Source: Clavelina lepadiformis (Eukaryota > Chordata > Ascidiacea > Aplousobranchia > Clavelinidae). From it: 64,000 nt of DNA. The notes beneath the pieces were generated by a model, which made no database searches, was not told the DNA's origin, and was given only the letters and a program-made list of their open reading frames with translations. Positions 7,675-64,000 of this stretch are shown in pieces (positions within the stretch are counted from its first letter, which is position 1; every line of letters begins with the position of its first letter). The DNA lies in contig NC_135248.1 of NCBI RefSeq assembly GCF_947623445.1, positions 12,347,820 to 12,411,819 on the forward strand, read 5' to 3'. The translations under genes were made by a program, and so were the position numbers.

Positions 7675-8264
7675 CCAGACTGCAGAGTATGGCCATTTTC
7701 AGCAAGATCTTGGATGCACTAAACAGTCAAAACTGAGAAGTGTGGTGCGCAAAAATGCTCAGATGCAATGGAAGTGCGCACAAAGGTGCACAATTACATA
7801 GTAATGTACATAGTTTGACTTATTCAATTTTCAAATCAATTGAAAATTGAGTGCACAGTTCGGAAAGTACTGTTCAAGTCATTTACTGCAAGATAACGCG
7901 ACTTAAGAGCAATATTGAGTGTGCCTATGCCAAAGTCTGCAGTCTGGTATCAATGGACAGTTTGCACGGCCAACCAGACTGCAGACTTTGACATAAACTC
8001 ACTCAACCCTGCTTTTGTTGAGCTTCAATGGTGCATTCAAGATGCGTTATTTTGCACTTAATGACTTGGACAGAACTTTTGTGCTACTAATTTTCAATTA
8101 ACGTTAAGATTGAATAAGTCCAAAGGTGTACATAACTGTGCAATTGCACACCTTGGAGCACACTTCTATTGCGTCCGACCATTTTTGCACACACCACTTG
8201 TGATTTTTGGTTGTTTGGCACACCTAATATCTTGCTGAAAATACCCATACTCTGCAGTCTGGAC
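7675..8264. repeat. Long inverted repeat (fold-back or MITE-like element)
   Basis: The left arm (about 7675-7949) begins CCAGACTGCAGAGTATGG. The right arm (about 7971-8264) is its imperfect reverse complement and ends CTCTGCAGTCTGG. Matching blocks run the length of both arms, including the ATTTTCAGCAAGAT block near each outer end and GACTTATTCAAT in the middle. The spacer is only about 20 bp, so the transcript would fold into one hairpin of nearly 300 bp. No coding potential was seen. It lies about 250 bp upstream of the RYK start. Divergence between arms is visible by eye, so it is not recent. Confidence 0.75.
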
Positions 8265-37107: not shown

Positions 37108-39360
37108 TTAGTGGCTATTTTTGACAGAAGTAAAAGGAATACGAACAGCGTAGTTATACAACTGCCGACATGTAACTTCTTTGTTTCCAATCTTCTTCAA
37201 TACGATGTTTTCTTCATCGCAAAGATATTCGAAGAACTCACTCGCATGTTGTTTAAAAAGCTTATCAATGTCTAGAAAGAAAGACAAGACTTTAATATTT
37301 TACCTAAATTTGTTGAAAAACAACTTTAACATGAACTAGCGTAGACAACAAAGTATTCATTTCTTCGCACATCTATATGTGATTGAGACAAGAGTACCAT
37401 TCAAAGTGATAATGACGTCTTTTTCAGCCATTTTTTTAACTGCTTCAACCGGTGATGGAAAAAGAAAACAGTACAGGGCAGAAAATGTTTTCCGCAAACG
37501 ACGTGCACTGTTTCTGTGTTCTTCAGAACTCATTTCATATTCCAATATGTCTTCTAAATAGTTTCTCTGCCCCGCTTGGTTATTTTTACCACCGGTAAAA
37601 CCGTAGGAATATGCTTCATTTTTCCAGTCTCTTATCAAGAACATAAAGACCTGTAAAGTTACAACTTTTCAGCAAAAAACTACAGTTTTATTTTAGAAAA
37701 ACCTTAGCAAATAGTATAATCAATGTAGTAAACGCTTAATCTTTCAACAAGTCGAATACAGTTAGACTCAAATCAAAGTGCATGCAATCAGTACTAATCT
37801 GTAGCCTACTGTTCTAGTATATACAATTGAAATTTATTGTTTAGTTTAACGGCGCTGACCGGAAATTGTGAGACGGGTTTATCGATGTCTTTTAAGTTTT
37901 TGGCGAATTCAACAATTGTCTGGTAAAAAGTACAAGTGTAGTATAAACAAAACATATAGCCAACTGTATTAATGGTAGAATGCAAATTAAAAGATTTTTT
38001 CACAAAGAAAATACGTTGCCAAGTGAACAATCTCACATTAATTTTGTCAATGTGCCAATGTTCTATGTTTGATTTTAGATTGAAAAAGTGGCAAGAACTC
38101 AAAAGAAGACTGATGTCCATAATTAAACTTGCGGCTTCTGACGATGTGGATTGATCAAACAATCCTTGAGTGTCCATAAGGAATACAGCAACCTTTACAG
38201 AATAACAGCTACTTTATAGTGCTATGATATATGCGAATTGCAAACAGCAACAAACATGCCACGAATTTTTGTGCTCGCCTTGGGATGAGTTTTCGTTGCA
38301 ACCGTAATTGGTTCTTTCTGAACAACTATCCCTTTGGTACAACCGGTTAAGAGACTTCTTCGACACGGGAAAGGTCCACTAATAATGTCATCTTGAGTGT
38401 CGAATAGTAACTGAAAACATGATATTTGCAGAGTTTTGGGATGTAAAAACCATTCATTCATTTGAATGCAAGTCCAGTCAGTCAGTTCACAAATCCAAAT
38501 AAACAAATGGCCGCAAGTCATAGGCTAATACATGCTGAAAAAGATTACCTGCAGTTACAGCAAAGGAATTGCTTTGGGATTTACTTTTTGTCATTTGTTG
38601 GTACTATCACAAATACTACTATCACAAATTAATCACAAATACTGACGTAAATTAACATTCCATTACATATACTATCAAATTTACGTATTATATTTTATTT
38701 TGTTTTTACAGATTCAATAGAATGCGTGGCCAAGAGGCGTTGAAAAAAGTTTGAAAAGTAAGAACGATTCTATGACGACTTGAATAGAAACATTAACGAT
38801 AAACGACACCAATCTACCTTTTTGAAATGAAAATGTTTTTAAGAAAATGACATTTTTACCTCTCCGGTATCCGTGTATCGAACAAACAAGTTCAAGAGTA
38901 ACGATTTTCCCGTTTGATACGTCCCTGCTATAGAATATATTGCAACCGGTAAATCTGCTACGCTCTCTTGCATTAGAACATTTTTGAGCGCCTCAAGGTC
39001 AAGCATTAACTGACCATCTTCTTCCTTGAGGATATTTACAACATCTTGAGATGAACCTGCAAAAGTGCCGTATCGTGTAATACTTTTTATAGGTGACGGA
39101 ATTTAAGGCAATCCTTTGGTGACTCAGGTGACTTTGGTGACTCAGCTAAAGTCATTCATTGATTCATTTGAGACTGATCCTATTTGTCATTGTTGTGTCA
39201 ACGTTTAATTTCAGCAGCAATTATAAAGAGCGTCACCCTGTCCATACCCGGTGTCACTTAAATTTTTTAATCTCTGGTAAAATTAATGTATGAAAGTTCA
39301 AGATGTACCTTGTTGTTGAAAAAAGCTTGGTATTTCTGATATTAGTTTCAGTGGGTTCAT
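37108..39360 (-). CDS. Atlastin-like GTPase, copy A (short, GTPase half only)
   Basis: Dynamin-superfamily GTPase of the atlastin type. Seven exons fit in phase: 39309-39360 (MNPLKLISEIPSFFQQQ), 38860-39056, 38279-38410, 38037-38192, 37860-37919, 37398-37650 and 37108-37271, giving 337 residues with no frame break. Motifs: P-loop AGTYQTGKSLLL; switch 2 LMDTQGLFDQSTS; base-recognition FLIRDWKNEAYSYGF; then CFLFPSP. Exon 7 matches copies B and C up to TCRQLYNYAV, then diverges (RIPFTSVKNSH-stop). It therefore lacks the rest of the middle domain and the membrane domain. Intron 3 has a GC donor (THPK|GCGAGC) where B has GTGAGC. An AATAAA follows the stop. It is either a soluble short paralog or a decaying 3' truncation. 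A soluble GTPase half could bind nucleotide but could not tether membranes as atlastin does. Confidence 0.75.
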
Positions 39361-39452
39361 AACGTTTAAGGTTTTGACAGTAGCAGGCGACTTTTGACGT
39401 TTTAGCCTTGTTCAGAAACGCAACTTTCTGAAATACGCGAATTCCCTAAAAA

Positions 39453-39668
39453 TTATGGTACAATTTCGTTGTCTGCAGGAAAAAAGCTTATGTTTAGTAT
39501 AATGTCTGTCATAGGCTCATATCTTTTAATTTGAAGCAAAGCGATCACATCAAAATTCCAGGTGTGTATGAAAGCTCCACTTTCGTCTGACTTGAACCAA
39601 ATTCTTAAACATTCCCGATTTTGAAATTCAACACGTCTCATACGTAGATATTGAATAACTGAAAACAA
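39453..39668 (-). CDS. Orphan exon-like open frame, unknown
   Basis: The frame ends in a stop and has ordinary protein composition, e.g. YLRMRRVEFQNRECLRIWF, SDESGAFIHTWNFDVIALLQ and RYEPMTDIILNISFFPADNE. An acceptor-like TTTTCAG precedes VIQYLRM at its 5' side. It lies just upstream of copy A and could be the last exon of an otherwise unseen gene. I do not recognise the family. A chance frame is possible. Confidence 0.3.
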   Translation of the reverse strand: MFSVIQYLRMRRVEFQNRECLRIWFKSDESGAFIHTWNFDVIALLQIKRYEPMTDIILNISFFPADNEIVP

Positions 39669-42233
39669 AAATACTAAAAATACTGAAAATCATCTCAGGC
39701 CAAGGACTGGGTTGCATGTCATTATCAACAGATAAAGCGAAAGCATGGCTTCGGCTTCTCAGCTTATGTTTGTGAAATTTCGTTGGACTGACGTAATAAT
39801 TTGAAGTTATTCCTGGAAACGCCTGTCTAGAGGACTTTCACAAAGTCCATGGAAACCAGCCCACGATGCCCAGTATTTGAAACATTTAGACCGATTTGTC
39901 GGTCATCAAAAACATTTGTCACGTTCAAGCTTCTAGAATCTAGCGTGATTGGCTTTTTCTCGAACTGACTGACCCCAGATCGAAGGATTTATTTTAATAA
40001 AGCTGATCTGATAGCCTAAATAAAAAAGCGCGATCCATAACAATCCTACAATAGGCTATGGTTGGACTTTCGTAGCCTACTGCCAGTTTTAGACATTGTT
40101 AACAGCATCATGCGACTTGGGCTAATCAAGCTGATAAAGATTCCAGACCTTACGCTGGTATATTGTAAGTTCTGTATTACTTAAGGTTACAAAGTTGCTT
40201 TTTAGCTGTTGTGGGCGTATTTATAAGCGCAGCGAACAGTAAAAGGATTTCATAATACTACAGTAATTACAATAAATAGCGCTTTGAATTGGAATATTCA
40301 ATTCGCCTAAGTAAAATGGGCTTGTCAATATCCGTAACGATTTATTGATTTAACAAAGAACCTTCACCGGAATATGAATCATGCGAGTACAAAAGGATTG
40401 CCACTTTCAATAAATACCAAAAGCTCAGCGCTTATTATGGACGCAGTAATGCCGCATTTGATTGCTATACAATGTCAATCGATCGACATGTATAAGTGAT
40501 GTAGATGTGTGTGCATTTTCGAAATTAAAACAAGGTGATTGAGGTAGAATACAGCACATTATATAATTAATTGCAGATTTTAAAGCATTGACATTTTTAA
40601 AAACTTGTAGATAGCAAAAATTAGCATTTTGAAAATAAAACCAGATGTTTATAACAGAAAATGTCCGATTGACATAATTTTATACCTTATAGACCAGGGC
40701 CTAGAAACAACATTTCCCAAACTTTTGTGAACCTTTTAATGCTTTTATAACTGTTATAAACACCATAAAACTTTACAGCTAACCAGAGAAATTTGTTTGT
40801 TTAAACTCGTAATCGCTTCGATTTGGAATGTGTGGAAAAATCACGACTGTAAAATCATCACTGTTAAAAACGCAGTAAAAGGCATAATTAGTCAAATTTA
40901 CGTTCAAAAGAATTCAAACTACTTTAGGTAAAGCAATTTAAGAAAATTCGTTTACTATTTAAGGCAAAACGTTTGCCTTCACCCCGCACACAGAGGTCAG
41001 GATGTATTTGCTACTAACTTTCTCTAAGAAGCACAATGAAATGTGTCACAAAGCCGTTGATGAAACACTTGAGTATAAGTTATTTACACTGTGTTTCAAA
41101 CTCCAGTTTAGAGATAGTTGTAGCGTATTTGTGCTTATTTGAATCGCAAGATTAGGCTTTAAACAAAACACAGTAATATACATTTCATAGTTATCGACGC
41201 AAAAAGCTAATCTCAGTTGAGTCTCATAAATCAACAATAACCAGCTAAACTGGACTGAAGTTCAAGTTAAAGTGTTAAGTTCAATATTTAAACACTTGCA
41301 AAATCGGGCATCAGGCTGCATATATGAAAGTTAATTGCGATTTTTAAAACCAAATTCTCAACTGTCGTTTCGTACTTAAGCTTATGGCCATTGTTAATTA
41401 CTTGATTGCTAATACGAAAAGAGTCCCGTAAAGATCAATTATCCAGTTGTATCCAGCATCAGTTTTGTAAATATGCGATTTGAATGATCGAAGTCTCCAT
41501 CTGTGTTGACCTTAACTTTATGAAGCCTTGATGATTTTACCTGCACACTTGATGATTTTATTATTTACAACATGCAAGATTTTGGTAGTTTTCTCGGATA
41601 ACTTCTCCTGATTTCTTTTTTTTCTCTTTCTTCTGATTCTTCTCGCTACAACCTTAGCGAGTCTTTAACCGACGCTAAAAGCGAGAAATATACGTAAGCG
41701 CAACGCATGGTGGTTCCAAATCCGCGAATATATTATTCTCCCTTGTTATATATATTTTCGATGCACAAAGAGGTCAGTTGGTCTCTAACAGCTGCAGCCT
41801 TAGAAAACTTTGTTCAACAGTTTCTTTTGAATTTACAATCGAATATATGATGTCACTATAAAACCAAGATGCACATCAGCGCGAGATTTTGGACTACATA
41901 CAGTATATCAAAGCCACATTACAGTGTATGTCAGCAATATTATTATACAGACTGCATTGGTAAAATATTTCAAGAAAATATAAAATATTACAATACACCG
42001 TAAAAATTATTCGTGTTCATGATTAGATAAATTTAATTTCAGAGAGCATTTATTGATTCACTACCAAACTTACTGTACATTTTACTTAACAACACAAAAC
42101 GATAATTTAACACGTTATATTTGGCGACTACAGTGCATTCATCTTGCTGGCATGTAGTTTGTCTACAAGTTGCTATATAACTGGGCATGACGCAATGATC
42201 CTGTTACTGAGCCTATGTTTTTTTATCAATATA
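39669..42233. other. Gene-free interval
   Basis: About 2.5 kb of AT-rich sequence with no supported exons or paired repeats. Short open frames here have no family resemblance. Confidence 0.35.
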
Positions 42234-44622
42234 TTACAGGATTGGACGAGTATCGCTTGTATCATTGTTGGTATGGTCGGGTTCTTCGTTTGGCTCGTCA
42301 ACTTGGCCTGCTTCGTCGGCGTCTTCTAATGCTCTTTCTTCTTCTTGTTTTATCATCATTGCTGAAATGAAAACTTCCGTATCCATGACTTCTGCGGCGT
42401 TTGGAAGAGCAACTTTCAGCGGAAGAAGACCGGCTGTAACGATGCTTTGTTTGAAGTCGAATTCTGACGATCCTTTTAATGCTAAAACTATACCAGCTAA
42501 TCCACCACCCACAGCCCCACCTCCAGCAGCAGTGCCAGCAATTAACGCAGCGATCAGACCAGCGGTGGAATACTCAGCAGCCGCCAAGTAGGGCAAAATT
42601 GGAGGTAGTAATACGGTTGCTGCAATGCTGCCGGCTACAAGAACTGAACCTAATATTCCAGCTCCTGCTTTCCATTTTAAGTTTCGCTTTTTAACGTCGG
42701 CATAAACCGTTTTGGTTTCGTTGAGAAGCTTTTCGTACACCTCAGGCGCACATTCTGGAGGAAGTTGCTCTTGTATTATCTGTAGACTTTCCCAGACCAA
42801 CTTCTTATGTTTGGTTGTTAAAACTCGGTTGAGATTGAGATGAGATCTCTAAAAATTGAAAAATATTTAAGTTTGTTTTTATTATCATTAACTCGATACT
42901 GTTGGCTTTACTGTACAATCGATTATTTCGTGCTTTTTATTATAAGCGCTATTATAGAATGCATTACAAAAAGACAAGCAAACATTCCCGATGTATAGTG
43001 TTCATAAGTGCTTACTTTCTTCAGGCATGCTGTGTATTCTTCGAGAACTTCTTTAAAAACAAGATCTGCATTCACTGTAAACTACGAAAATAGAATAATC
43101 TAAAACAATTCATTTGAATTATAACTTATAACCAGCCCAACTGAACTAATAACATTGATGACAACGACATGTAAAACGGTGAAAGTAAGAACATATTCAC
43201 AACATGAATCACATGTGTACCTTTTTTCTGGTAAAAAAACGTTCCATTTTGTTTTTTAGAATCTTCTTTGCTCGTACTTGGAAGTCGTTTGTACCCGGCT
43301 TTTCAAGATCATCAAATTTCTTTATGGATTCTTCTTTCATACGCTTGTGCTCTGTTACAAATTCTTCAAGCTCAACGCCTTCCCATTGAGTCTGCATTGT
43401 ATAAATTTGGAAAGTATAATGAATGTAATTGCAAATGTCTCCAGAGAATATCTATGAATAATAACAGGAAAAATATCTTTTACAGAAGCAAAAATATAAT
43501 ACTTGTTTGTTTAAAATTAAGAGATGCCACTAAATCTACGCAGATTTTTTAAAGGTATCTCATATGCATAAATCTTTATTCATCTTTTTTACACGCAAAC
43601 TTTTTACCATTTTTTCCTCGTAAAGATGATTGCATTCCTTTATCACTTTGTCCATTGCTATATTGTCCTGTCAAAAGATTATAAGCCTTTGACTTATATT
43701 ATTATTGTTATTATTAGCCTTTAGCTGTTATGAACAAAGTGTACTTTCTTTCAACCTTTTTGATATTATATATATTTTTTGATGTTATGTTATGCTTATT
43801 GTGTTCAAATGTTTAGTGAAAACCACCAGATTATTTATAGAGTGATGGTTATTACGCTTACCTTTATTTCTATAAATCGTTCATCGATTTTACGTTCGAG
43901 TATCTGTCTTCATTCTTTGATCAACTTCTCTCATACATCCGACAGTGTTGTCGTACTTTTCGAGGGATTTCTTCTTCGTAAAAACGTGCATTTGATACAA
44001 GGTCTGATCATCTTCCTGAGATTCACAGTTACTTTCTTCAATCATTAAAAAAACTTTTCTGACCCGTTGAAATACATTTAAACAAACAAGTAGACGAAGA
44101 GATCATTAAACTGTTCTGTATGTGACAACTAAAATTAAAAAGACAACGTTTATGGTATAACTAAGTGTTTATTAAGACTTCTTGAATGTCTGATTAAATG
44201 ATTTTGTAAACATTCAAATTGATAACAGAAATAATATATCTGGTTTGTTAAAAATAATAGTAGTATATAATAATAATAATAATAATAATATTAATAATAA
44301 TAGTAATATATCTATCTGTCCTGTTCTAATATATCCTAATTTTATGCTCTAGCTTTTGTGGTTTTATTTTTAGGTTATCAGTGATAACTTATCACATATG
44401 CTTTTAGAACTTACAGTAGCACCGTCTTTGTTGTTTTAAATGTGATTGTTAAGCGCTTTAAAGCGGTTCTTTTTATCGGATAAAGGCACTATATAAATGT
44501 TACCGTAATTATTGCAAATGACGGCTAATAATTCTTATTACCTCATATATGTCATCCATGTCTTTGCGGTATTGCAGCAGGCAATCTTGAACAATATTTT
44601 CTACTGTAGCTGTTTGTTTGGC
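42234..44622 (-). pseudogene. Atlastin-like GTPase, orphan C-terminal half (cassette D), one exon out of frame
   Basis: Six exons correspond one for one to exons 8-13 of copies B and C: 44542-44622 (QTATVENIVQDCLLQYRKDM), 43862-44015, 43608-43667 (MDKVIKECNHLYEEKM), 43221-43391 (EGVELEEFVTEHKRMKEESI), 43016-43081 (VNADLVFKEVLEEYTACLK) and 42234-42848 (hydrophobic domain and tail). The second is 154 nt against 153 in B and C. Its frame changes after DQRMK, then ILERKIDERFIEIK continues in another frame. No GTPase-half exons were found between here and copy B. The last exon is fully open (TRPIL-stop), with Gly/Ala-rich segments like B and C. Most likely a partial duplicate that lost its 5' half. 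It could still serve as an alternative 3' end for copy B. Confidence 0.7.
44267..44312. repeat. (AAT)n microsatellite
   Basis: A run of about ten AAT/ATA units between exons 8 and 9 of cassette D, slightly interrupted at the 3' side. Confidence 0.9.
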
Positions 44623-45891
44623 CTAAAATGGTAGGTGTAGGTAATGGTAGCTAGAGGTAGCTTAATTAGGTTTATATATTTACCCTGTTGGGAAGCCATT
44701 AAAGAACACAGTCTTGACAAAAAGGTTCAAATAGAACATTGTCATTTTTTACACAAAAATGAGGCGTAACTATTTCTATACAGTACAAACCGTTGCTATC
44801 AAGTGTTATTTGCGTATGTCAAACTACAGTACACTTTCGACGCAACATTAAGTGCAATTTTTGCGTATACCACGTGTATGCATTATGTTTCACGGCAACT
44901 TGCACTGTATGCGCCTGCACTATTCACAGGGCACGCTTTTGCCTATGCTGCACAGGCACATGAAACTGTCATGAAAACAGATTCTGAAAACTGTTATGAC
45001 AACTGTTACTTCACTGTCACTAAAATTCGTGAAAGCTTCTGCTTTTGCGATCCATTGATGAACTGCATACAAATGAAGAAACCTTTGTGTCTCGCAAGTA
45101 TTTCTTTTACTGAAATAAGACTAAGATAGAGCCTGACACCGTAATTCACTTTGCATTAAGTTGGCTGACTATGCAGTGACTGTACTGTCGAATGTCTTTA
45201 GTAATTTCCCTAGAGCTCACAGCATGATGGAGTCAAAAGGAACACAATGTTCTGGTTAAAGCTTTCTTGCTTGCTACAATACTATTATACATACTTACTG
45301 CAATACTTACTTACTACTATACTTTGCATACTACACATACTATGCTCACTATACATACTATGCATACTACAGTATACATATACATAAAACGTATGCATAC
45401 TGGCATACTTCTGTTTTCTTCTTTTTATAATCCTACGAAAATGACCACTTTATAAGAATAGGCAGTTGCTTGTCTATTGCGCTACCGAGCTAATTAAAGT
45501 GAATAGTTTATGGCATGGCGTTGACACGGCACCAATTGCCGCATACATTCCCTATAATTGATTATTGATTTTTTTCTACCGAGCGGAGCAAGCAATTTTA
45601 AACTGGTAAGTAATGTACAGCATGTAGCTAAAGTTAATACGGAAATAAGGAAAGGAAATACGAATTAAAGTTAATGTTGCGTCTTATGACAAGAGTGCAT
45701 ACAGTTGTCATTCACGAAAAACCTTTTCATTAACATAAATCGAACAAAGTAAACTAGAAATATTGCAGAGATAACTGTATGTACAACAAGCATGTAAAAG
45801 TACGGGTTTGATTTAATTCAAATAGCAGTTCATTCATTCTTTTCAACAAAGTAATTTTTCTTGGAGACTCTTGCCAGGTTGCTTATACCGG
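44623..45891. other. Spacer between cassette D and copy B
   Basis: No gene supported. At 45280-45395 there is a degenerate ATACT/CATACTA-rich simple repeat. The open frame near 44.8-45.1 kb has no family resemblance. Confidence 0.4.
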
Positions 45892-48800
45892 TTAAAGCAC
45901 ATTATCTTTCTGATCTTTGTTGCACTCCTGCTCCGTCATGGCTGAAAGAAAAACCTCTTCATCCATCAGTGCTGCCGCGTTGGGAAGAGCAATCTTCAGC
46001 GAAAGAAGACCAGCTCTGACGAGACTCATTTTGAAGTTGGAAGGACCAAATAAGGCAGTTAAAATATCTTTGACTGATGTTCCACTGCCTTCCACTCCGC
46101 CGTAAACGAGTGATGCAAGCGTGGCTTCCGACAAAAATATACCAAGAGGCGAAAGCAATATTGAACTCAATGCCAAGGCTCCACTTCCAAAAATTGTCCC
46201 TATTATTCCTGCTCCTATTCTCCATTTCAAGTTCCTCTTCTTAACGTCGTCATAAACTGTTTCAGTTTCGATGAGAACTTTTTCAAAGACCTGTATAGAT
46301 TCTCCAGGAGGGAGTTTTCCTTCAATTTTTTCCAAAATTTCCCAGATCAACTTGCGATGTTTGGTTCTTAGAACCGTGTCGAGATTAAGGTAAGATTTCT
46401 GACCAAAAAAGTAATGAATAAGTTTTTTTAAAGCTCCTACAGAAGCTTCTTTTATGTAACTGAAATTCAGTAAGTCTAGTCTTATTCTTTTACCGTCTTC
46501 AAGCGCGCTGTGTATTCTTCAAGAACCTCTTTGAAAACCAATTCCATGTCTAAGCGAATCTGGCAAATTTGCAAAAATTAGTTTTTTAAAGGGTTTGTTT
46601 GCACAGCATCATTTTGTCAAACCAACACAATGTGTTTCGATAAAATTTGTCTTATTGCTTAGTTAAAAACGCTTATGACAATGCTCTATGACTGTATCCT
46701 ATACTGTATATATAATGCATGCGTATGCATACTGATTATGTTATTACTTTCTAAATACTTTCGTCATGAAATACGTATTACAGATGGTTCTATGAAGATT
46801 TGTGTACACCAACACGTATAATCTCAGACATTAGCACTGAACAACACCTAAATAGAATTGGATGCGCATCCGGAGCTTATAGATGGCAGGTAAGCATATT
46901 AATACAAACCTTGTTTCTTTGAAACAGTTGGTTAATTTTGGTTTCCAACTTCTTTCTTTCTTTCATATGATAATCTTTACCGCCCGGTTTTTCGCTAATT
47001 GCAAATATTTGCATACACTCCTTCTTCCAAGTCATGTGATCATTTTTAAAGCGTTCCGGATCGATTCCTTCCCAATGAAGCTACAAGAGCATTGAAAGCA
47101 AAATTTAACTGCGAGAAACAAATTGTAATACTATGCCAATGTCAAAGAACGATTTACGTCGTATTATCAGAAAACACTATCAGAAAACAAGTCACCAATT
47201 TGTCTTCATAGAACTTGAAGCACTTTTCCGTTATCAGGTCCATTTCTCGTTTAGTCTGTTTAGAAATTGCATTCAGCCTTTTTTGTAAACTTCTATTCTT
47301 ATCTTTCTCTTTGCTATTTTAATTTCAGAAAAATTTATTATATTAAACTATTAGGCCTATTATACTAGACTACATGCTTTAAACATGCCGCCAAAACCGT
47401 TTCATAAGAGAAAAAATTTTTACGACTTTCCTGTTGATAAATCTTCGTTATCATCCCACATTTGATTGCGTAATGTGTTGTTACCTGTCGTGTTGGCACA
47501 ATTCCAGCATACTACACCATTACAAGATACAGGAGATATGTTTTCATTGCCATGCCGCTACGTGTAAGCTCACATCTAGCACCGGTGCTATAACTTATTT
47601 ACAAACCAGCCTGCCCAGTATAGGCGAATTAAAGTTATAGTTATAGTTTAGTGTGTTTCGGAGTTAACTTACTTTTATTTCTTTGAACTGTTGTTGGATG
47701 AGAAGCTCTATACGTAAATAACCTTTTCTCTTTAAAGCTTTGTCACTGCATGGGTAATCTTCATATTTGGAAAGGTATTTGTGCATCTTTAAGAAATGTG
47801 TATGTTCCAGCCAAAGTATTTCAACCTATAGCATATTTTGAATGAAAGCAAAAGTATGATATTTGACATAATAAGGAATAGAACTCTGCCAGATTTATAA
47901 TGTCTGTTTTGTTATCTCTTTATATCAACTACCATAAATTCAATTACATAGCCTCATTTGGGTATCTTTGTGCACTTACTTGCGTAGTTTTCACAACACT
48001 GCACCCACGATCATTGAATATTCTATATGCAGTGTGGCCTGCTTTTGTCACATATCACACAAAACACAAAAATGTTTATTGATTCATATAAGATGTGTTT
48101 TGACTTACAGGAAAAAGATCCATTTCATGGCGATATTCACACACCAATTTGTGAATTCTATTATCGACCTGGGCTCTTTCCTTGGCCTAGAAGAAACAGT
48201 TGTAAGATAAAAGATAGTTAGGCCTAAAGATAGTTACGCAGTGTTTAGAAGAGAGTGGAACATTGACAGCAGTTTCGTTCTACTTATTTGGAACTTATTG
48301 AACTATTTTCAATTTGATACGCACGTGAGTAACATTTTTCGATTAGTAAGACAAGTGAAGGCAAAAATCTTAACAAAACTAAGCCATTCGGTATTTCCAT
48401 TTACTCAATCACTATCACATGAAGCATTTAGAAATAAAATAGACATTGAGTCATAAAAATGAACGATAGTAAGCTCTACACGACCGAGTGCATTTTTATG
48501 ACACTGCCAATCAATGAACAAAGTTTAATATTAATATGTGTATATCAACTGAGAAATTAGTTACTGCCAATTTAGGCAGTTTTAACTTATTCATTCACAC
48601 AATTAAAAACATTTTTATAACAAATAGCATAATGAAAGTTAAAACGTATCAGATTTTACCTTGACGAAGCTGTCCACGGAAGTCACCAAACCTTTTGCTA
48701 AGATGAAGTCATAATGAACAGCGTAGTTATACAACTGGCGACAAGTAACTTCTTCGTTCTCAAACTTCTTCAATACGATGTTTTCTTCATCGCAAAGATA

Positions 48801-51044: not shown

Positions 51045-51460
51045 TTTTTACAAATATTTTCGGTGATTAAAGTTGAAAAATGTACTCTCAGCAATCTTTA
51101 GTCTTAGCTACACCGATAAAACTAAGAAAACGAAACAACGCCTGCAGAAAAAGAAGCAAGTTGTTTAGCAAAACACGGTACGTTAGGGAGTCGGCGTCCA
51201 GTTCGTAATAAGCTTGCTCAAACAAAATTGCTGCCACCGCCGCAACTTTGCAACCAATCAAAGGAGCAAATGCACGGTTCTATTTTCGATTTCGCACGCC
51301 GTGTTTTCGGAATGCGCTGTTTGTTTGCAGCTTCGTAGTTTTGCAACAAGTTAGCGTTTGCCCAAATCACTTTGCGCGGTAGATTGTAAGTGGAATTTGA
51401 TCACAAGTTGCACATAACTGTCAATGCAACTTGAAGATACAACTAAATTAAATGTTGACA
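51045..51460. promoter_or_regulatory. Proximal upstream region of copy B
   Basis: About 400 bp between the copy B start codon and the duplicated upstream block. A promoter is expected here on positional grounds; no TATA box or other element can be assigned with confidence. Confidence 0.3.
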
Positions 51461-52244
51461 ATCAACAGCTTTTAAAACGCTCTTCTAAAATCTTTAACTT
51501 AATGCTATTCATGCAACAAACATACAGGTTTGTAGGTGGTCAATGTTGCCGTTAAGATAGTGAGTGTGCCAGCAAAGTGACGCTGTATGACACCATTGTA
51601 GTGAACAAGAACAAAATTAGCGCAACTACAAAGTTAACACCAATAATAATAATAACATGTTTCTGATCAAAAAGGGCAGTTTTCTCCAGTAAATGTTTTT
51701 CAATCTTAAAATAGACGGTTTGTGCTCTCTTATTTCAGGAACGTTAAAGGCACAACCACTCAGTGTTGATGAAGCAATAAAATTAACACGAACTCTCAGC
51801 TACGCTGAGAAGTATTTTTGAATCGATATGATGGAAGCCAACTTAAAACAAATGAAGTACGCAAGTTTTTTATCAGCTCGCTGTCCGCTCCGTATGTATT
51901 TGTCATCATTACTATCTTTCTTCTACAGGAATACACATTATATATAGAGTATAGACAATGCGGTACATACCGTCTCACAATTAGAAAAGCTCGTCAATTG
52001 AGCACAACAACGAAAGAGATAAACAAGCTTTTACATAAAACGCCCGCCCAGAAAACGCAGCTGAAATAACGCACGTTAGCAGCAGTTTTGCTCCCTGTAG
52101 CTCAACCGCAATGAGACTAATCCCAGCATGTCTCTCGTTCTTCAGCCTGACGTCATAATTTAGTCAGGCGTTTTGAGCGTCAAAGTTTGTAATCAGTGGA
52201 ATTCTTTTGACGTGATCATTGAAATTCAGTATAACCACGTTCGG
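51461..52244. repeat. Duplicated upstream block, unit 1
   Basis: Nearly identical to 63147-64000, in the same orientation. Shared text includes CGCTCTTCTAAAATCTTTAA, GTAGGTGGTCAATGTTGCCG, GAACGTTAAAGGCACAACCA and AACGCACGTTAGCA. It lies upstream of copy B as unit 2 lies upstream of copy C. It encodes nothing I can support and probably marks the duplication that made B and C. Confidence 0.9.
52146..52168. promoter_or_regulatory. CRE-like palindrome in duplicated block
   Basis: Contains TGACGTCA (52148-52155), the full consensus for CREB/ATF-type bZIP proteins. It sits inside a longer inverted pair CCTGAC ... GTCAGG. The same motif is kept in unit 2 at 63904-63911. Activity is inferred from the motif only. 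Confidence 0.4.
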
Positions 52245-52436
52245 TCCGTTGATTGAGGTTTGTGAAGAAATAGTTTTTAATATACAAAGAAAGATTTAAA
52301 TGTGAATATCGCTGCTGCGATTTTTACGAAAAGATTTCTAACAAAAACTGTCTGCTGTAGCCTAGCCTAACTGAGAGCAAATAAAGTTTCCAAATACATA
52401 CAAGTAACTTTTTTTAAGGTCACATAGTAGCCTATA

Positions 52437-53011
52437 TCGGTGGATGAAGAAGTTTTTGTTTCAATTATGTTATATTATGTTTCAAAAACCAAAACCGTCT
52501 TCGCCGATGTGAAGAAGAGCAATTTGAAATGGAGAATAGGGGCAGGAATAGGGGGCACTATTGCCGGAGGTGCCGCCATTACAGCTGCTGCAATATTGCC
52601 CCCACTTTTATCTGCAATGGTTGCTGCTAATGTTTCTACTTCAGCGTTAGTCACTGGATCAATAGCTGGTGGAGCTGTAGGTGGTGGAACTGCTGGTGGT
52701 GTGCTAACTGCTTTTGGTTTGGCCTTTTCTCCGTCTACTTGTTTACCAACTTTGACTTCAAACGAAGCATCGTCACAGCCGGTGTTCTTCCGCTGACAAT
52801 TGCTCTTCCAAACACCGCAAAATTCTTGGTCGAGAAAGTTTTCGTGTCAGCAACGACCAAACAAGAACGTAATAACGTGAGGAAAAGCTCGGATGACATT
52901 ATTTCTACCGACCCGATTGATGGCGGACCCAGCAACGACGAAACCAACGATTATAGTTCATTGTTACACCTTGTTGAGTGCCTTAATTACTGGGCAACAT
53001 TGTTGAACTAA
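52437..53011 (+). pseudogene. Inverted, rearranged fragment of the atlastin-like last exon
   Basis: On the opposite strand to all other copies. It begins with a DEEVFVSIM piece that belongs near the end of the domain, then runs SKTKTVFADVKKSNLKWRIG, AGIGGTIAGGAAITAAAILP and AGGAVGGGTAGG. The matching frame then changes once near 52735, continuing FDFKRSIVTAGVLPLTIALP and DPIDGGPSNDE to a stop. The tail (NNVRKSSDDI, DPIDGGPSND) is closest to copy C. No other exons accompany it. It is a broken partial copy. Confidence 0.8.
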
Positions 53012-54810
53012 TTTGACCACATCACATCAAAAAAAACAATCAGCTCAATCAAAACTCCAGTTAGAAATTACAAATTCTGTGTGCTACATGTATGTATGTA
53101 TATAGGCAAAAAGTAAGCTGGGAGACAAGATTTATAGCAGGATTTCATGCTCACCTTTGACAACCAATATGCCAGCAAATAAACAATAAGTTTGTGTGTA
53201 CACTGACTCGCAGGCAATGTCGTAACCACCCAGTTTCAGGTTTTAACAACAAACGAAACATGCCTTCGGTTACCGTATATCACGATTATGAGGTTTTGTT
53301 TCATATGTGATGGTTTGGTGGCGGTAGACGGCGATCGAAAGACTTAAGCATATAAATAACTTGCTAAGTTGTAATCTTTTGTGTTTTGTAAATTTCCTCA
53401 GAGTTTACATCGCAGGAAATCTTATTGGCCTGTTTTCATGGCGTAATTTTACATAAGTCACAATTTTGTAATGAGAAAAACGGCCAGGCTAACTCTTAGT
53501 GTAATCGCCTCATTTCAAATTTTTTTGTGATTGAAGAAATTCTTCTCATTGACCTCTGGAACTTCTCTGATTTTAAATTTCTTTTTTGTTAAAGCGTTTT
53601 CTTCTACAATTACCAAAAATGATAATGAAAAATTTTGGAATATCCAAGTTAAGATTAAATTCATATGGTATATTTGCAAAGAAATTTTCAACAAAACAAG
53701 TACGGATGGAAGACTTATATGAATTATATGCATAATCTTATATGGAAAAGCAGCATTCATTCAGAAAAATCAACAACAAGAAAAAGTTAAATCAAGCTAA
53801 AAGTTGAAGTAAACTGGATAAGTACGGATACCGTACATATACAAAATTGCTTTTCAAACATGAGAAACCAAAACCTATTAGAATACAAAATCGGTGCTGA
53901 CTTGCTAATAACTGCAAGGTCTTAAGGCCGATAAAAGATAATAATTAATCAATTAAATGATAAAACAACTTCAACAGTATGCCAAGGAACAGTGATAAGC
54001 ATCATCAGTGATAACGTCTGTTAAAAATAACACAAATTATAATAACTGAGAATTGTCATTTGTGTGATGACATCAACATGAACGGCGGCCAGTCACTCCT
54101 ACATCTCTCCTAACGGTTTAATTTAAAAAAGTCATTTTGTTAACTGGAGTGTTTTTGGTTATCAGTTCCCCGATGATTACTTATTCGTGATATTTACACA
54201 TAGCTCACAACAAATAGATTGATGGATAAGTACTTAGGTAGCACCGTGTACTTAGGTAGCACCGTTAGGTACCGTGTTGATCTGCGAATAAGTAACAGAA
54301 TTAAAAACCAACTGACGGGTAAACAACTCTACGTTTTGTAGAAGTAACTGATTAGTTAACCAGAAAGAGGTTAACCAAGTTTCTACTGGTGGTTTGTTAA
54401 ATAAGAATGTTGTACGAAATGTGTAACAAACATTATTTGTTTGATTTATTGATTTGGATTTTAATTATTTTTTATTAAATTACTTGCAATTGTAATCAAC
54501 TGCTGTCGCGTGTCTGGTTGGTCATGTAATGCAGGCGTACATGGGAACATATTCAATGAAAATAAGTGGTACCCCAAGCAATAAAAACGTTCATTACAAA
54601 AAGCAGATTGTTTCTAGAAAACAAACTTGTGCCAGGATGAACAAAAGTCAAAAATATGTCGTGGTGACTAACAGTTGAGGACTTTAATTGGTTTGACTTT
54701 AAATTCTGGTGTGATTATGTCCACGGTGAGTTACTTGTTTTCATCAGAGTTTGCAGGCGTGTCTTCATATTGTTTCATCAACATTGCTGAAATGATGGTA
54801 ATTAAGGCAC
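53012..54810. other. Gene-free interval between the inverted fragment and copy C
   Basis: About 1.8 kb without supported exons. A small tandem repeat of ACTTAGGTAGCACCGT occurs at about 54232-54275. Nothing else stands out. Confidence 0.4.
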
Positions 54811-57800
54811 TTATTGAACAAGGCGTAACAGTGAATTACAATCGTGGGTTTCATCATTGTCGTTGCTGGGTCCGCCATCAATCGAGTCAGTAGGAGCAAT
54901 TTCATCCGAATTTTCCCTCACGTTATTACGCTCTTGTTTCATCATCATTGCTGAAATAAAAACTTCCTCGTCAATGAGTGCTGATGCGTCGGGGAGAGAA
55001 ACTTTCAGTGGAAGAAGACCGGCGGTGACGAGGCTTTTTTTGAAGTCAAAGTTTGAAGACCCAGAAAACCCCAAGAATAAACCAGTTGGCACACCAACAG
55101 CCGCTCCACCGCCTACAGCTCCACCAGCTATTAACCCAGTAACCAATAATGCAGTAGAAGCTTCAGCAGCAACCATTGCAGGTAAAAGTGGGGGCAATAC
55201 TGCAGCAGCTGCAATGGCCGCACCTCCGACAATAGTGCCCCCTATTCCTGCCCCTATTCTCCATTTCAAATTTCTCTTCTTCACATCGGCGAAGACGGTT
55301 TTGGTTTCGCCGAGAAACTTTTCGTAGATCTCAGCAGCTCGACCAGGAGGAAGTTCCTCTTCTATTTTCTTCAAACTTTCCCAGACCAGCTTGTGATGCT
55401 TGCTCCTCAAAACTCTGTTGAGATTTAGATGGGAACGCTGACAAATAAAGCACGCGCTGTAAGCTCCTTCATAATGTTGCACAGATGTTTACTTCTTTAG
55501 TTTAGAATGAGCGATTGATGACGCATTTTCTTACCTTTTTCAAACCTGCTGTGTATTCTTCAAGGACCTCTTTCAAAACAATCTCCGTATTTACACGAAT
55601 CTACACAAATCAATCAAAGGCTTATATATATATATATATATATATATAGCTTATGGGGAAAAATCCTTTTTTTTTAAAGTTAACTCGTCTATGTTATCAA
55701 TACAACGACTAAAACCTTAAGGGTAATAACAATTTTGCAAAAAGACGTTAAACAAACCACGTCTTGAAATTATATAACTAACCGTTTATATACCTTTGTT
55801 CGTTGATAGAAACGCTCTATCTCGTTCTCGAGAAGATCCTTGGCTCGTACTTGGAAATATTCCCCCTCTGGTTTTTCAAGATCATCAAACTTCTTCCTGG
55901 ACTCATCTTTCAATAGCTGGTGTTCATTTTCTAAATCTTCCAACTTGGTGCCTTTCCACTGAAGCTAAGTTACAAACAACATTTGTGGTAAATTTTCCAC
56001 AAAATTTTTCCATATTTATAAGATGCAGGATGACAATGTAAACATAAGTCGTATGAAATCAAAATTAACCCTGGCACAGTAGGAATTACAAAAAGCATAC
56101 CATTTTATCCTGGTAGTGATTGAAGCACTGATCAACAATTTTAGCCATAAAATCTTTGTGCTATAAAAAAAAGGGATTTCTACGTTTATGCAATGAAAAA
56201 TATCAGGGCAAATAACCATCTTACGTCGTCAATATTAGTAGTCTTTAACTCTCAATTGCTTTTATTATTAGAAGTTAAAAGAAAAAGAAGACATTATAAT
56301 CGTGTGTTTAAGTCATTTACACATTTCTTTCTTTGCCTTTCGTTACAGTTGACATACTTTTACATCAGTAAATTGTTGCTCGATTTTGAAGGCAAGCTTT
56401 TGACGACCTTCGCGTTTCAAATCTTCACCTCCGCAAGCCTTGCCATCATATTCTTGCAGAATCATGTTCTTTTTGAAAATGTGTAACTCGTCCAAGTTTT
56501 CATCTTTATTCTAAAATGGATTTACTGTAAATAAAAGGAATCAAAAATCGAATGATGTTTGCATAATTTAGGTGAAACGAACTTGGCTGGAATAATCCGT
56601 TTCTTGACGATATTGTAAGACAAGGTCATGAATCAAATTTGCTGACGCACCTCTTTGTGTGGCCTGCAAGTAACAGAAGAAAGTTTACGTCATTCCTACT
56701 CAACAATCGTTTTTTCGTTATGAACAATCATTCATAAAATCTGCATTTGATTTCAAAGCACGGCAAAATATGATTACTTTCTTGATATTCTGTGTTACTT
56801 AAGACAATGTAAACTACAACAATGTATTAGTAGCCTATTTGTATTACTTGTGGTTGCAAAAGGAAGTAATCAAATCAAAAAAGTTTATATTTACTTTTAC
56901 ATAGCTATCCACCGAGGAAACCAATCCGCTTGCAAGAACCAAATCTAAATGAACAGCGTGGTTGTACAACTGCCGGCAACTCACCTCTCTATTGTCAAGT
57001 ATTTTCAAGCAAATGTTATCACGGTGGCAAAGATGTTCAAACAAATAACTCGCCTCTTTACGAAAAGCCAAGCTTATATCTAAAACAAAAATAAGCTAAA
57101 CAATGTGATTCTGTTTCGTGACGCAAAACTATGAGAGTTACATAAACTTTGTATTTTAAAAGTTAGACTTTGAAAGGTGGTTAAATTTACTGATCGATCA
57201 ATTCGCTTAAAACAAACAAGGATTATTTTGTATGTTAAATTATTATATTTATGCGTATACTGTAAGATTTAATCTAAATGAAATGTCGAAATGATTTCAC
57301 AATAAATGTTCGTTTATGACGGAATCATCGTCTTTTGATAGCTGTTTTGGAAGCTTTTAATATACAGCATTTTATGAAGGAAATATTACTACTTCAAAAC
57401 CTTTCAGCAAGCAGAATGTATCCTCTTTCTCCATCGCTTCAACGACGTCACCAGAGGAGGGAAGTAGAAAGCAGGACATTTTTTCGAAGGTTTGTCGAAG
57501 AAGACTTTGAATGTCCCTGTGCTCTTCGGAGCCACGCTCTTCATTCTGAAGAACTTCTTTCAAAAACTTTTCTCCCCCTTCGAGGCCAAGTGGGAAACTT
57601 CTTACTTTCTTCCAATCTCGAATTAAAAACATGAGTCGCTGCAATATAGTTATGGTCAGATGTGTCCACCAGGTAATTTCTCTTGCTTAAATAATTCTTA
57701 AAGTGTACAATCATTTATACAGCATATAATAGACTTTTTGAAACAGCATGCTATAGTTAGCGACATTTCTTCACACAATTTACCTGAAAGGGCGAGTCTA

Positions 57801-60800
57801 CTTGATTAATGTTCTGCAATTTTCTGGCAAAGTCAGCAAATTTCTGCAAGAAATGATAAACATTTGCATGTGTATATATGCTATATTAGTCGTATATTGA
57901 CATCACGTCAATAACAATCAGCAATGTTGTGTGTGTATAATTATATATACTGTCCATAACAAACCCGGTATCGTGATTTTAATTCGTGCTACAGACGTTA
58001 TCCACTGCTGATTACAGCTTTTTTGCGTACATATGAGACACACACATATTTATATATATATTAGAGGGTTCGCCATCCAGAGCCAAGTGTCTTTGTTAAC
58101 AGATTTCTTATCTTACTCCTGCATTTCATTAATAGCGTCACATACAGTAATTTTTATTGCACAATAAAAATTCGCACAATAAAATTCGTGGCTGTTTATT
58201 GCACAATAAAAAGTCCGCTGACCTGTAAACGTTTCCAAAATGACTGAAATTATCTTTATAGCTAATCTAGGGTTACCATATTTTCGTGGCCTAAAATCCG
58301 GACACTCTTTAGTGCCCACTAGCGGTTTTTAAAAATGAGGTATGAACACATTGTCTGTCAATATGACGTCACAGTAGCAATGCTTTGCCTATCCATTGTA
58401 TACCGGAGTGGATTTTTGAACATAGTGTCGTGAATTCAATAGGCTATTGGGCTATTTCTGATTTGACCTCTGGTGATCTCTAGGCTAGGGTTAGGCTATG
58501 GTGATCTCTAGGCTAGGGTCTAGGTCAGACACGTCGCGTGCCATGTGTTGGACACCCCTGATTTACAGGATTATTCCCGCAATTCTAATTCCCCCAAAAC
58601 GCCCATCATAAAATTCCGGACATTTGAGCATTTTTTAAAATTCCTCCCGGACGCAAAATTTAACCCTACATTCCGGACATGTCCGGAATTTTCCGGACGG
58701 TATGGCAACCCTAGCTGCTAATCGTCGTCAAACTTTTACCCTTGTTTACTTGTCATGTGATAACGTTACATTTTTCTCGCAAACAAAGTCTGTTACTTAT
58801 TAATAATCTTTTTTTAAAATGGCATGTTACCTATGAAAACTTTTTCTAAAGCTTCCTACTTTGCAATCTGTTTTATACAGATTTCAGGAAACACTTGTGA
58901 AACGTCTCATAAAACAGTTGCCAATATATACATTTACTTTCTCTTTATCGTAAAGAAATGTTGTATATCAAATATTTCAAACAACACTTATAAACCGCAT
59001 TGTGTATTACATCTACGTGATCTTATTTGAAAATATTAATCTTCCGTGATCGGTTCCGCAAAATGGGATCAATCAATCTAAAATAAGATAACGCAACAGA
59101 TAAATGGGATTGCGGGGGCAATACATTAAAGTGGAAATACGACATACTACGGTACACATTTTTGTTCTCTTGAAAAAGTAAACAAGGTTTTATGTTGCAA
59201 CCGATTGGACTGGGCAGAGTGCATTAATGTCACTTACAGCAGTTTGACTATTTTGCACAACTTTGAAAAAATCTATGTCAACTTTGAAAAATCTATGCTC
59301 AATAAACTTATGGTCAAAGTGTCTGCATCACATTTTGCATGAAGGAGGTAACGTCGCTGTGTAGTTTTTCAATGTGTAATGTCAATAATGTCAAAACTGA
59401 AAAATTATTGGTCAATAAAAATCGCTATATATAGTTACTAGCTATAATCAAATTTCTTTGTATTACTAAAATTTCCATTTTATACTTGATGAAATATTAA
59501 TTCAACACATTATAGACCATATTGGCAAGGAAATACTATTTAACTTAAGTTTTTTCGTATGTATTTTGTAAACTCACGTAGATTGTTGTCAGGTGGTCGG
59601 AGGATATATTTTGACTTAAATTGTAGAACTGATAAGAACTAAGTAATAAACTGAAACCCATGATGTCACCAGTAACCTCAGTTGATGCGGAATGATCAAA
59701 CATCCCTTGAGTATCCATGAGAAATACAGCTACCTATAAAAAGAATTCTTTGAAGTTACAGCTTAATTGCTACCGTTATATACAAAGGCATTCACATTGG
59801 TACAATTGAATAATTATTTGAATTTTAAGATTGTTTGAGAAAAGCACAAGTCCCGTGGATTTGTACATGGAGTTTCTGTCTTATTTTTACAAAATAAAAA
59901 AATCTCGTAGCAAACAGCTTATACCTTACGATGCTTTTCCGTTGCTATGAAGAAAGGTTTTCTCAAAATATAGATTCCGTTCGTACAAGCGTCCAGAGCT
60001 CCACCTTGAATCGCAAATGGTCCCTTGATGACGTCATTATCAGAGATATTTTCACACAACTGTGAAAATTCTGTTTTTAGTACGTACTGGGGGTCACTGT
60101 GTTTGTGGTTACCAATATCAAATCAAACTGAGCTTGTAAAAAACCAAAAACTTTTAAGGTCTCTTTTAAAATCAAAATGCTTCAATGGTGACTTCATTGT
60201 CAAACGTATTGTTTCACCACACAACTTATACAAGAATGAGCAATAGCATGATTCCTATTAAAACAAATTGGGCTTGAATTTTTGGATTAATTCTGAAATA
60301 TTTGACTTTAGGTTTAGTGTTTAGTTGTATTATTTCCCATGTTAATACATGAAAGCTTTGCAAACAGCCGGAACTTGTACAAAACGCAGTAAAAAATTAA
60401 AACAATAGTTTTAAGCTGTCAGCATTATACTTCTTCGGTTTCCATGTAACGGACGAAAAGATCCAAAAGAAGCGACTTTCCCATTCGAAAAACTCCAGCT
60501 GCCGAGTAAATTGCAACCGGGAGATCTTCGACCTCTTTATCCAGTAGAACGCTTCTTAGCGCATTCTTATCCAACACTAACCGTTTATTTTCTTCTTTTA
60601 CGATATTGACGACACGTGGTGAAGTACCTGAAACGTAATACAGGTATTTTGATTTTTAAGTAAACGTAACGTTTTCAGGTTAGAAGGTTATGCCTTTACT
60701 TAATCAGCATGTTTTTAAAGTGAAATTAAACTGACAAAATACGTTTAAGGACAAGCCTAATCTCGAAAAAAATGTAACTAAAATATATATAGGGTAATTT

Positions 60801-61339
60801 ATATACAAAAAACAAACACAAGTCAATCACCAAAATCCATACTCAAATTCTTTGTAACGTTTAGTTTAAAGCAAGATTATAATTTAGGTCCAGGTTATAT
60901 ATAGGTGTAGGCTATGCCACACGTTGCGCATGAAATTAACGGGCACAGGGTAAAAGCTGGACACGACGCAATCCGCAGATCGTCCATAGACTGTTGAAAA
61001 TGGACGATTTTTGAGTAAGCATCCATGGACGCTTTTACGCAAAACCGCTAAATCGCCCATGCATGTACGATCCGTGGATTGCGTCGTGTCCAGCTTTTAC
61101 CCGGTCCCCAGTATTGTTACTAATTAAAACAACTGAAACCGGTATTTTGGCACAAACAATTGATACACAGGCACAAAATAGAGGTTAATAGGCTTTACAT
61201 GATCAAAGGACTTGACATTCTAACTTGTAAACAATGAAATTTATCAGGAACATACTTGCTTATATACAGTACAGTATATAGGCTATTTGTAACGCAGCAA
61301 TAACGCTTTGCTCTTACCTGGTAAAGGATTACTGCTCAT
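54811..61339 (-). CDS. Atlastin-like GTPase with Gly/Ala-rich membrane domain, copy C
   Basis: Thirteen exons match copy B in number and phase: 61318-61339 (MSSNPLP), 60431-60627, 59925-60059, 59578-59733, 57784-57843, 57401-57638, 56895-57079, 56583-56663, 56358-56510, 56101-56160, 55794-55964, 55535-55600 and 54811-55437; 716 residues. GTPase motifs: AGVFRMGKSLLLDLFVRY, LMDTQGMFDHSAS, FLIRDWKKVRSFPLGL. The C-terminal domain has two hydrophobic Gly/Ala-rich runs, RIGAGIGGTIVGGAAIAAAA with VLPPLLPAMV, and TGLIAGGAVGGGAAVGV with PTGLFLGF. These are spaced like a membrane hairpin and rich in GxxxG. Then come LLPLKVSLPDASALIDEEVF and an acidic, Asn/Asp-rich tail (DSIDGGPSNDNDE). Exon 6 is 15 nt shorter than in A and B. 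Its introns hold two DNA-element relics (58267-58714 and 60941-61109). No frame break was seen. Confidence 0.85.
55621..55650. repeat. (TA)n microsatellite
   Basis: About fourteen TA units in the intron between exons 11 and 12 of copy C. Confidence 0.9.
58267..58714. mobile_element. hAT-like non-autonomous element in a copy C intron
   Basis: Inverted ends: CTAGGGTTACCATA on the left and TATGGCAACCCTAG on the right, with CCGGA-rich subterminal repeats (TCCGGACA, GTCCGGAATTTTCCGGAC). The 8 bp flanks TAGCTAAT and CTGCTAAT agree at six positions, fitting an aged 8 bp target duplication. No transposase frame is present. An internal direct repeat GATCTCTAGGCTAGGGT occurs twice near 58470-58525. 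Confidence 0.7.
60941..61109. mobile_element. 169 bp miniature relative of the 4.8 kb palindrome element
   Basis: Left end GGGCACAGGGTAAAAGCTGG then ACACGACGCAATCCGC; the right end is the reverse complement with few changes (GATTGCGTCGTGTCCAGCTT then TTACCCGGTCCCC). The inside has the same GTTGAAAATGGACGATTTTT and CATCCATGGACGCTTTTACG blocks as the large element. It sits in intron 1 of copy C. No clear target duplication was seen. Confidence 0.85.
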
Positions 61340-63146: not shown

Positions 63147-64000
63147 ATCAACCGCTTTTAAAAACGCTCTTCTAAAATCTTTAACTTAATGCTATTCATG
63201 CAGCAAACATACAGGATTGTAGGTGGTCAATGTTGCCGTTAAGATAGTGAGTGTGCCAGCAAAGTGACGCTGTATGACTCCATTGTAGTGAACAAGAGCA
63301 AAATTAGCGCAACTACAAAGTTAATACCAATAATAATAATAAACACATGTTTCTGATCAAAAAGGGTAGTTTTCTCAAACGGAAACGTTGATATCATGAA
63401 AATCAATAGGCTAAAATAAAATTTAGTTCACTATACCTACGGCCTCCTTGCAGTAAATGTGAATAAATGTTTTTCAATCTTAAAATAGACGGTTTGTGTT
63501 CGTTTATCTCAGGAACGTTAAAGGCACAACCACTCAGCGTTGATGAAGCAATAAAATTAACATGAACTCTCAGATTTTGAATTGATATGATGGAAGCCAA
63601 CTTAAAACATATGCAAAGTACGCAAGTTTTTTATCAGCTCGCTGTCCGCTCCGCATTTTGTCATCATTACTATCTTTCTTCTACAGGAATACACATTTTA
63701 TATAGACAATGCGGTACATACCGTCTCACAAGTTGAAAAACTCGTTTATTAAGCACAACAACGAAAGAGATAAAAAACAAGCTTGTACATAAAACGCCCG
63801 CCCAGAAAACGCAGCTGAAATAACGCACGTTAGCAACAGTTTTGTTCCCTGTAGCTCAACCGCAATGAGACACTAATCCCAGCATGTCTCTCGTTCTTCA
63901 GCCTGACGTCATAATTTAGTCAGGCGTTTTGAGCGTCAAAGTTTGTAATCAGTGGAATTCTTTTGACGTGATCATTGAAATTCAGTATAACCATGTTCGG
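63147..64000. repeat. Duplicated upstream block, unit 2 (runs off the window)
   Basis: Direct repeat of 51461-52244, with an extra stretch of about 70 bp at 63377-63450 that unit 1 lacks. It also keeps the TGACGTCA motif (63904-63911). The match continues to the last base of the window. Confidence 0.9.

Follow-up and report, generated by a model that had tools for sequence, protein, structure and literature searches.

What kind of protein do the atlastin-like GTPase genes on chromosome 9 of the ascidian Clavelina lepadiformis encode, and is their unusual C-terminal part a new domain or a familiar one in altered form? The genes lie in a stretch of 64,000 nucleotides (about 12.348-12.412 Mb of the chromosome; the window hereafter), for which a preliminary description had proposed an atlastin-type GTPase joined to a longer helical region and to a novel Gly/Ala-rich C-terminal domain. 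The reading that we consider reasonably probable is that they belong to a large, tandemly expanded family of atlastin-derived GTPases in which the three-helix bundle has been multiplied by duplication of one exon pair, the membrane anchor staying at the position that it has in atlastin. Two complete genes, copies B and C, carry this argument; their models were built by hand, without RNA. Copy C (61339-54811, minus strand) has 13 exons encoding 716 amino acids, a frame that is open throughout and GT-AG borders at all 12 introns, and copy B (51044-45892, minus strand; 687 amino acids) is likewise complete and open, with 13 exons in the same layout. Exons 1-4 of copy C are found at 61339-61318, 60627-60431, 60059-59925 and 59733-59578, exons 5-8 at 57843-57784, 57638-57401, 57079-56895 and 56663-56583, exons 9-11 at 56510-56358, 56160-56101 and 55964-55794, and exons 12 and 13 at 55600-55535 and 55437-54811. 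On the same minus strand, exons 1-7 (56895..61339) encode the GTPase domain and a linker, exons 8+9 a first three-helix bundle (56358..56663), exons 10+11 a second one, the nearest to that of atlastin (55794..56160), exon 12 with the start of exon 13 a probable third (55261..55600), and the remainder of exon 13 a Gly/Ala-rich membrane pair followed by a tail with an LP-DEEVF-SAM motif (54811..55260).

To which GTPases are these proteins related? In Pfam searches at E values up to 1, PF02263 (GBP) was the only family matched by either of them (E 1.7e-35 for C, 1.6e-43 for B), and a PDB search with C returned atlastins as its best matches (atlastin-1, E 1.4e-49, 172 bits), so that the GTPase is of the atlastin type, as first proposed. 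Both copies carry a P-loop with Arg, the switch I Thr, DTQG and RD. Of 27 gene rows tabulated (the conventional atlastin of Clavelina and 26 family members, among them a recent duplicate of C), 23 have the P-loop GK[ST], 26 have DTQG and 25 have RD, and Arg precedes the P-loop lysine in 19; the stretch read for one locus, L040, contained no P-loop exon. Most of the GTPase motifs are lost in L031, and the P-loops of L022 and L027 are altered. The same PDB search also matched C to 9jju_A, which we take to be Xenopus RNF112, with E 5.7e-18 and 68 bits. Could B and C then be relatives of RNF112/neurolastin that lack the RING finger? The parts of PMC12012479 consulted do give RNF112 a GTPase domain, a middle domain of three helices and hydrophobic elements at the C terminus. 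Such a descent is nevertheless highly improbable, as the match to atlastin-1 is far stronger (172 versus 68 bits), which favours a closer sequence relationship to atlastin than to RNF112. Moreover, no C3HC4 pattern was found in the single open frames of the window and of 25 scanned loci, a scan that would miss a RING finger split by an intron or lying further upstream, exon 1 of B and C encoding just 7 residues.

Why, then, is the helical region so long? Copy C aligns to atlastin-1 over residues 4-310 and again over residues 438-483, the latter onto the end of the three-helix bundle, with some 70 extra residues in C between the two aligned pieces; the longer helical region of the preliminary description is therefore real. 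Its comparison with a 'plain helix pair' in ordinary atlastins was mistaken, since according to the consulted portion of PMC12312388 the atlastin GTPase domain is followed by a three-helix bundle. The exon table accounts for the extra residues: one module appears to recur, in exons 8+9, in exons 10+11 and in exon 12 with the opening part of exon 13, each time as a helix-1 exon of 20-27 residues followed by an exon for helices 2 and 3, and exons 8-13 of C have phase-0 boundaries. The long helical region is thus best explained as the single three-helix bundle of atlastin in repeated form. This was assessed in 11 comparisons; each used 2000 shuffles, and between 1803 and 2000 of these received a score. 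The bundle 2 profile (B+C) scored 20.5 bits against the bundle of Clavelina's own atlastin, a value reached by none of 1871 shuffles, and bundle 1 of C scored 18.6 bits against the family profile made without it (0 of 1981) and 10.5 bits against a smaller profile (1 of 1996). These values show the kinship of bundle 2 with the atlastin bundle and of bundle 1 of C with the family profile. In profile-profile comparisons, the bundle 1 exons were matched at E 1.1e-5 (probability 82%), and hhalign aligned the start of the last exon to bundle helices 2-3 over 46 columns, with E 3.5e-4 and a probability of 37%, or with E 1.4e-4 and 52% in the reverse direction; in both cases none of 200 column-shuffled controls reached the real score, and the linker exon, the negative control, gave E 0.24-0.41. 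For these profiles the HB3 set of 31 segments had been reduced by 10 and the last-exon set of 15 by 5, the segments removed being fragments, second copies, those of L029 and of the duplicate L021, and exon 9 itself. An HB3 match of E 1e-12 for exon 9 of C is inflated by the iterated profile, and a set of counts came from a profile for which many of the segments counted had served as training data; the fair tests are the shuffle comparisons.

Several results weigh against a stalk of three bundles and must be set beside those above. Bundle 1 of B scored at chance by itself (-1.2 bits, reached by 1929 of 1971 shuffles) and in another test as well (0.6 bits, 1204 of 1990), and was assigned by its position and its kinship to C. 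For bundle 3, 12 of 1975 shuffles scored as high as the real segment in C and 1 of 1985 in B. The atlastin bundle was picked neither by the bundle-1 pair profile (145 of 1905 shuffles as high) nor by the bundle-3 pair profile (596 of 1803), and the bundle-1 pair also failed to pick bundle 2 of C (133 of 2000). When the helical region was searched by itself against the PDB, nothing significant was returned, the best match (0.093) being unrelated and helices 2-3 of atlastin-1 appearing at 0.12. In the profile-profile check that the preliminary description had called for, the last-exon starts aligned to the family bundle, as just given, and gave E 0.41 directly against the bundle 1 exons. On balance, exon 12 and the start of exon 13 probably encode a third bundle.

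The multiplication of the exon pair can be watched in L028 (C2:1424000-1433500), a chromosome-2 paralogue with a five-fold exon-pair array (5479-7860). The array is a 478-bp tandem unit in 5.0 copies with 97% matches; each pair measures 69 + 171 nt, and all five are in frame with GT-AG sites. The unit scored 26.4 bits against the profile of bundle 2 plus atlastin (0 of 1983 shuffles as high), and a single-sequence genome search, sensitive to close copies only, placed such copies at seven sites and nowhere else, L028's own five and one in each of two neighbouring paralogues. With a terminal bundle included, L028 could have six bundles. It also counts against too simple a view that the L028 P-loop lacks Arg and that pairwise comparison of the units shows 40 nonsynonymous codon changes against 7 synonymous ones, which makes the function of this paralogue doubtful. 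Might the repeated pairs be something else altogether, namely mutually exclusive alternative exons that would give a stalk of ordinary length with interchangeable bundles? The near-identical, in-frame tandem pairs of L028 would suit such an arrangement, as would L019 (C5:18255500-18264500), in which two tandem candidate terminal exons (6030-6500 and 6960-7511) are possibly alternative membrane anchors. In B and C, by contrast, the pairs are strongly diverged, their order is fixed and the terminal pair runs into the membrane part; alternative use of the pairs is accordingly rather unlikely. A microsatellite adjoins the switch I exon of L019.

Does the last exon, from its membrane part onwards, encode something new? 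Relative to that of C, the last exon is 52% identical in B and 58% identical in an orphan C-terminal half, where it lies at 42848-42234, and the proposed LPxAxxxxDEEVFxSAM motif proved to be conserved, LPxA, D, EVF and SAM being invariant in all three. The two hydrophobic runs are real as well: in B, C and the orphan half, two closely spaced hydropathy peaks follow the bundle, with best 19-residue Kyte-Doolittle means of 1.84-2.13 for the first run and 1.29-1.81 for the second, B being the least Gly/Ala-rich. From the lysine of the K-H motif, the two segments start after 60 and 83 residues in C and after 60 and 80 in Clavelina's own atlastin, as counted on the sequence strings, a near-equal spacing that places the membrane pair at the anchor position of atlastin. 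Two hydrophobic segments after the helical part were found in all eight family last exons measured, which had been picked for being recognisable, and the same layout recurs on chromosomes 1, 2 and 5, where some of the last exons are Gly/Ala-rich and some ordinarily hydrophobic. A search with one such last exon returned several matches in the chromosome-3 cluster, mainly over the helical part. The capture of a separate new domain by an atlastin, as envisaged at the outset, was mostly rejected on these grounds, the start of the exon aligning with bundle helices 2-3 and the membrane pair standing where atlastin has its own; the 'new' C-terminal domain would be mostly the last bundle followed by a membrane anchor at the atlastin place. 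Compared with the membrane region of atlastin, the last exon is thus alike in position and layout and unlike in the sequence of the membrane runs and the tail. The chromosome-9 copies stand out by their Gly/Ala richness, which is less marked in B, and by the tail motif.

Here, too, some observations point the other way. Within the stretches read, the membrane exon was not recognised in most other loci. The tail gave no amphipathic-helix signal, shuffles scoring as high in 986 (C), 820 (B) and 887 (orphan half) of 1000 cases, in a test weak enough for the conventional atlastin itself to be equalled by 72 of 1000. Structure prediction, the second check suggested for this exon, yielded from three sequences an AlphaFold model with a mean pLDDT of 36.5, which is unusable; its low-confidence helices (6-26 and 34-62) would fit bundle helices 2-3. 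The Pfam matches of the last exon fell below curated cut-offs, belonged to unrelated families and looked like chance, and no relatives outside the Clavelina genome were confirmed among 62 pattern matches in viral_contigs and 59 in genome_contigs. Ala-rich repeats were observed in the membrane region of the last exons of L026, L027 and L028, that of L028 including a 24-bp in-frame tandem repeat (9117-9373), so that hydrophobic length may vary among alleles.

How large is the family, and how did it grow? A PF02263 profile search of the genome gave 101 matches, 43 of which span the DTQG exon. One of these is the only conventional atlastin found (L001, C7:12756778-12757578, minus strand), intronless, with a membrane pair and a single open frame of 564 codons. 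This leaves at least 42 atlastin-like loci, mostly clustered and spread over seven chromosomes (C1-C6, C9), a count that takes in a broken copy (A) and does not imply a working gene at each locus; the detailed reading covered 24 stretches, most of the chromosome-3 and chromosome-4 clusters lying outside them. In a G-domain tree of 26 rows, to which human ATL1 was added and from which L040 and the duplicate of C were left out, copies A, B and C form one clade (support 99/98), nested in a 12-row clade (100/100) with genes of chromosomes 1, 2, 4 and 5. Support is weak (76/72) at the deepest split, the one relevant to rooting against atlastin. No expansion of tunicate atlastins and no multi-bundle atlastin was found in the titles and abstract starts of the open-access literature.

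Growth has been recent in part. Just beyond the window, 12,257 bases further along, lies a second copy of C (L021), with 13 of 13 exons open, no exon indel and 22 amino-acid differences; in DNA, the two longest blocks are 96.9% and 98.3% identical to copy C and shorter ones 82-88%. An inverted last-exon fragment accompanies C in the window (52431-53011, plus strand, frame broken) and L021 alike; the two copies go back to a recent tandem duplication. The stretch 51470-52244, which recurs at 63157-64000 with 91-98% identity in blocks (strand not assigned), marks the edge of that duplication of about 12 kb carrying copy C. Synonymous changes between C and L021 are patchy, with 9 in exons 1-7 and 0 in exons 8-13, and gene conversion has perhaps taken place. 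Truncation has accompanied duplication, as the preliminary description had noted: besides the inverted fragment and the second C, there are copy A (39056-37108, minus strand), an N-terminal half whose last open frame stops at 37108 and whose P-loop has Gln in place of Arg, and, between B and A, the orphan C-terminal half (44622-42234, minus strand), made of homologues of exons 8-13 with, as read, stop codons within exon 9.

Is the expansion then largely non-functional turnover, decaying tandem copies of little role? Neither copy A nor the orphan half is intact, the motif losses in L031, L022 and L027 fit decay, and C differs from its duplicate by a dN of 0.0137 against a dS of 0.0198. Yet B and C are open across 13 exons, the P-loop GK[ST] is kept in 23 of the 27 rows, and between B and C dN (0.37) is far below a nearly saturated dS (1.84), which suggests that both copies are under constraint; turnover as the main account is fairly unlikely. 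A different possibility, in line with the preliminary description, is that the proteins form a fast-evolving family of GBP-like immune effectors whose Gly/Ala-rich segments insert into and permeabilise the membranes of pathogens or vacuoles. At least 42 clustered loci with recent tandem duplication, truncated copies and remodelled membrane segments are what such a role might leave behind, but expansion by itself is no proof of immunity, B and C match neither GBP_C nor the IFI6/IFI27 family, and the membrane pair sits at the atlastin anchor position. Permeabilising effectors are for these reasons an unlikely option.

If B and C are atlastin-derived proteins with multiplied bundles, how might they work? 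They would consist of a GTPase domain, atlastin-type bundles that arose as one phase-0 exon pair (helix 1, then helices 2+3) was duplicated in tandem, a membrane hairpin at the atlastin position and a short tail. In the consulted parts of PMC10954664 and PMC12312388, atlastin G domains pair when GTP is bound, their linkers cross and the bundles turn parallel, giving crossover dimers, and the bundles tighten on hydrolysis, pulling the membranes together; the whole conformational cycle, as presented in the former, passes through a single three-helix bundle. By analogy, the C-terminal hydrophobic pair of B and C would anchor the protein with both ends in the cytosol, GTP-loaded G domains would pair on one membrane or across two, and the stalks would then cross over and become parallel. 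Added bundles would extend the stalk and so set the bridged distance, or else stiffen it. Since an atlastin-type GTPase is combined with an anchor at the same place, B and C are most likely membrane tethers or fusogens with a stalk of about three bundles; anchoring, topology, dimerisation and tethering are our inference, as is any immune role. A bolder and quite tentative extension is that of a tunicate-expanded superfamily with an evolvable, fast-changing stalk length and an anchor remodelled into Gly/Ala-rich segments, serving as tethers of graded reach in cell-autonomous membrane defence, in which bundles would be added singly, from one in atlastin to three in the window genes and six in the chromosome-2 gene. 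A single animal whose related GTPases have one bundle, three or perhaps six would permit a direct test of how stalk length sets tethering distance and fusion, and the size of the expansion, with at least 42 loci next to a lone conventional atlastin, makes this a candidate family for innate immunity in a chordate lineage near the vertebrates.

Elsewhere in the window, matches to PK_Tyr_Ser-Thr kinase and WIF domains (973-1266 and 5839-6132, minus strand) belong to what we take to be a RYK-type receptor gene. An 800-codon open frame (24969-27368, plus strand) matches zf-C3Hc3H at E 1.6e-4, below the curated cut-off, and is perhaps INO80D-like. A repetitive open frame (12564-13151, minus strand) with SMDGYGIGLNSGYDEV-type units is probably a tandem repeat rather than a gene.

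How do these proteins compare with known systems? With GBPs they share the Pfam GBP GTPase domain and membership in a clustered multigene family, vertebrate GBP genes being clustered as well; they differ in ending in a C-terminal membrane pair instead, and neither B nor C was matched by GBP_C (PF02841) up to an E value of 1. IFI6/IFI27 (ISG12) resemble them in the Gly/Ala-rich hydrophobic pattern; kinship was rejected, PF06140 matching none of six last exons and nothing in the genome up to an E value of 10. With RNF112/neurolastin the likeness extends to GTPase, middle domain and C-terminal hydrophobic region. Like atlastin, B and C have the GTPase with its motifs, a stalk of the three-helix-bundle type and two hydrophobic segments directly past the last bundle, in the domain order given for atlastin in the portions of PMC12312388 and PMC10954664 consulted. 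Atlastin, however, has one bundle where B and C have two clear ones and a probable third, and they depart from it further in their Gly/Ala-rich membrane runs, their LP-DEEVF-SAM tail without an amphipathic signal, their 13 exons as opposed to the one open frame of the Clavelina atlastin, and their dozens of clustered copies. An extended helical region, a close membrane pair and a tail are also found in Sey1p and RHD3, whose helical region is described as longer than that of atlastin in the parts of PMC9804665 and PMC3866526 consulted, and for the longer bundle of Sey1p the former suggests a possible further role. A single-sequence PDB search with C gave 18 matches up to an E value of 1, none of them a Sey1p chain. 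Since Sey1p and RHD3 are already long, stalk length by itself is not new; what sets B and C apart, and was not found described in the open-access literature, is the growth of the stalk by recognisable duplication of an exon pair within a family of atlastin-type lineage.

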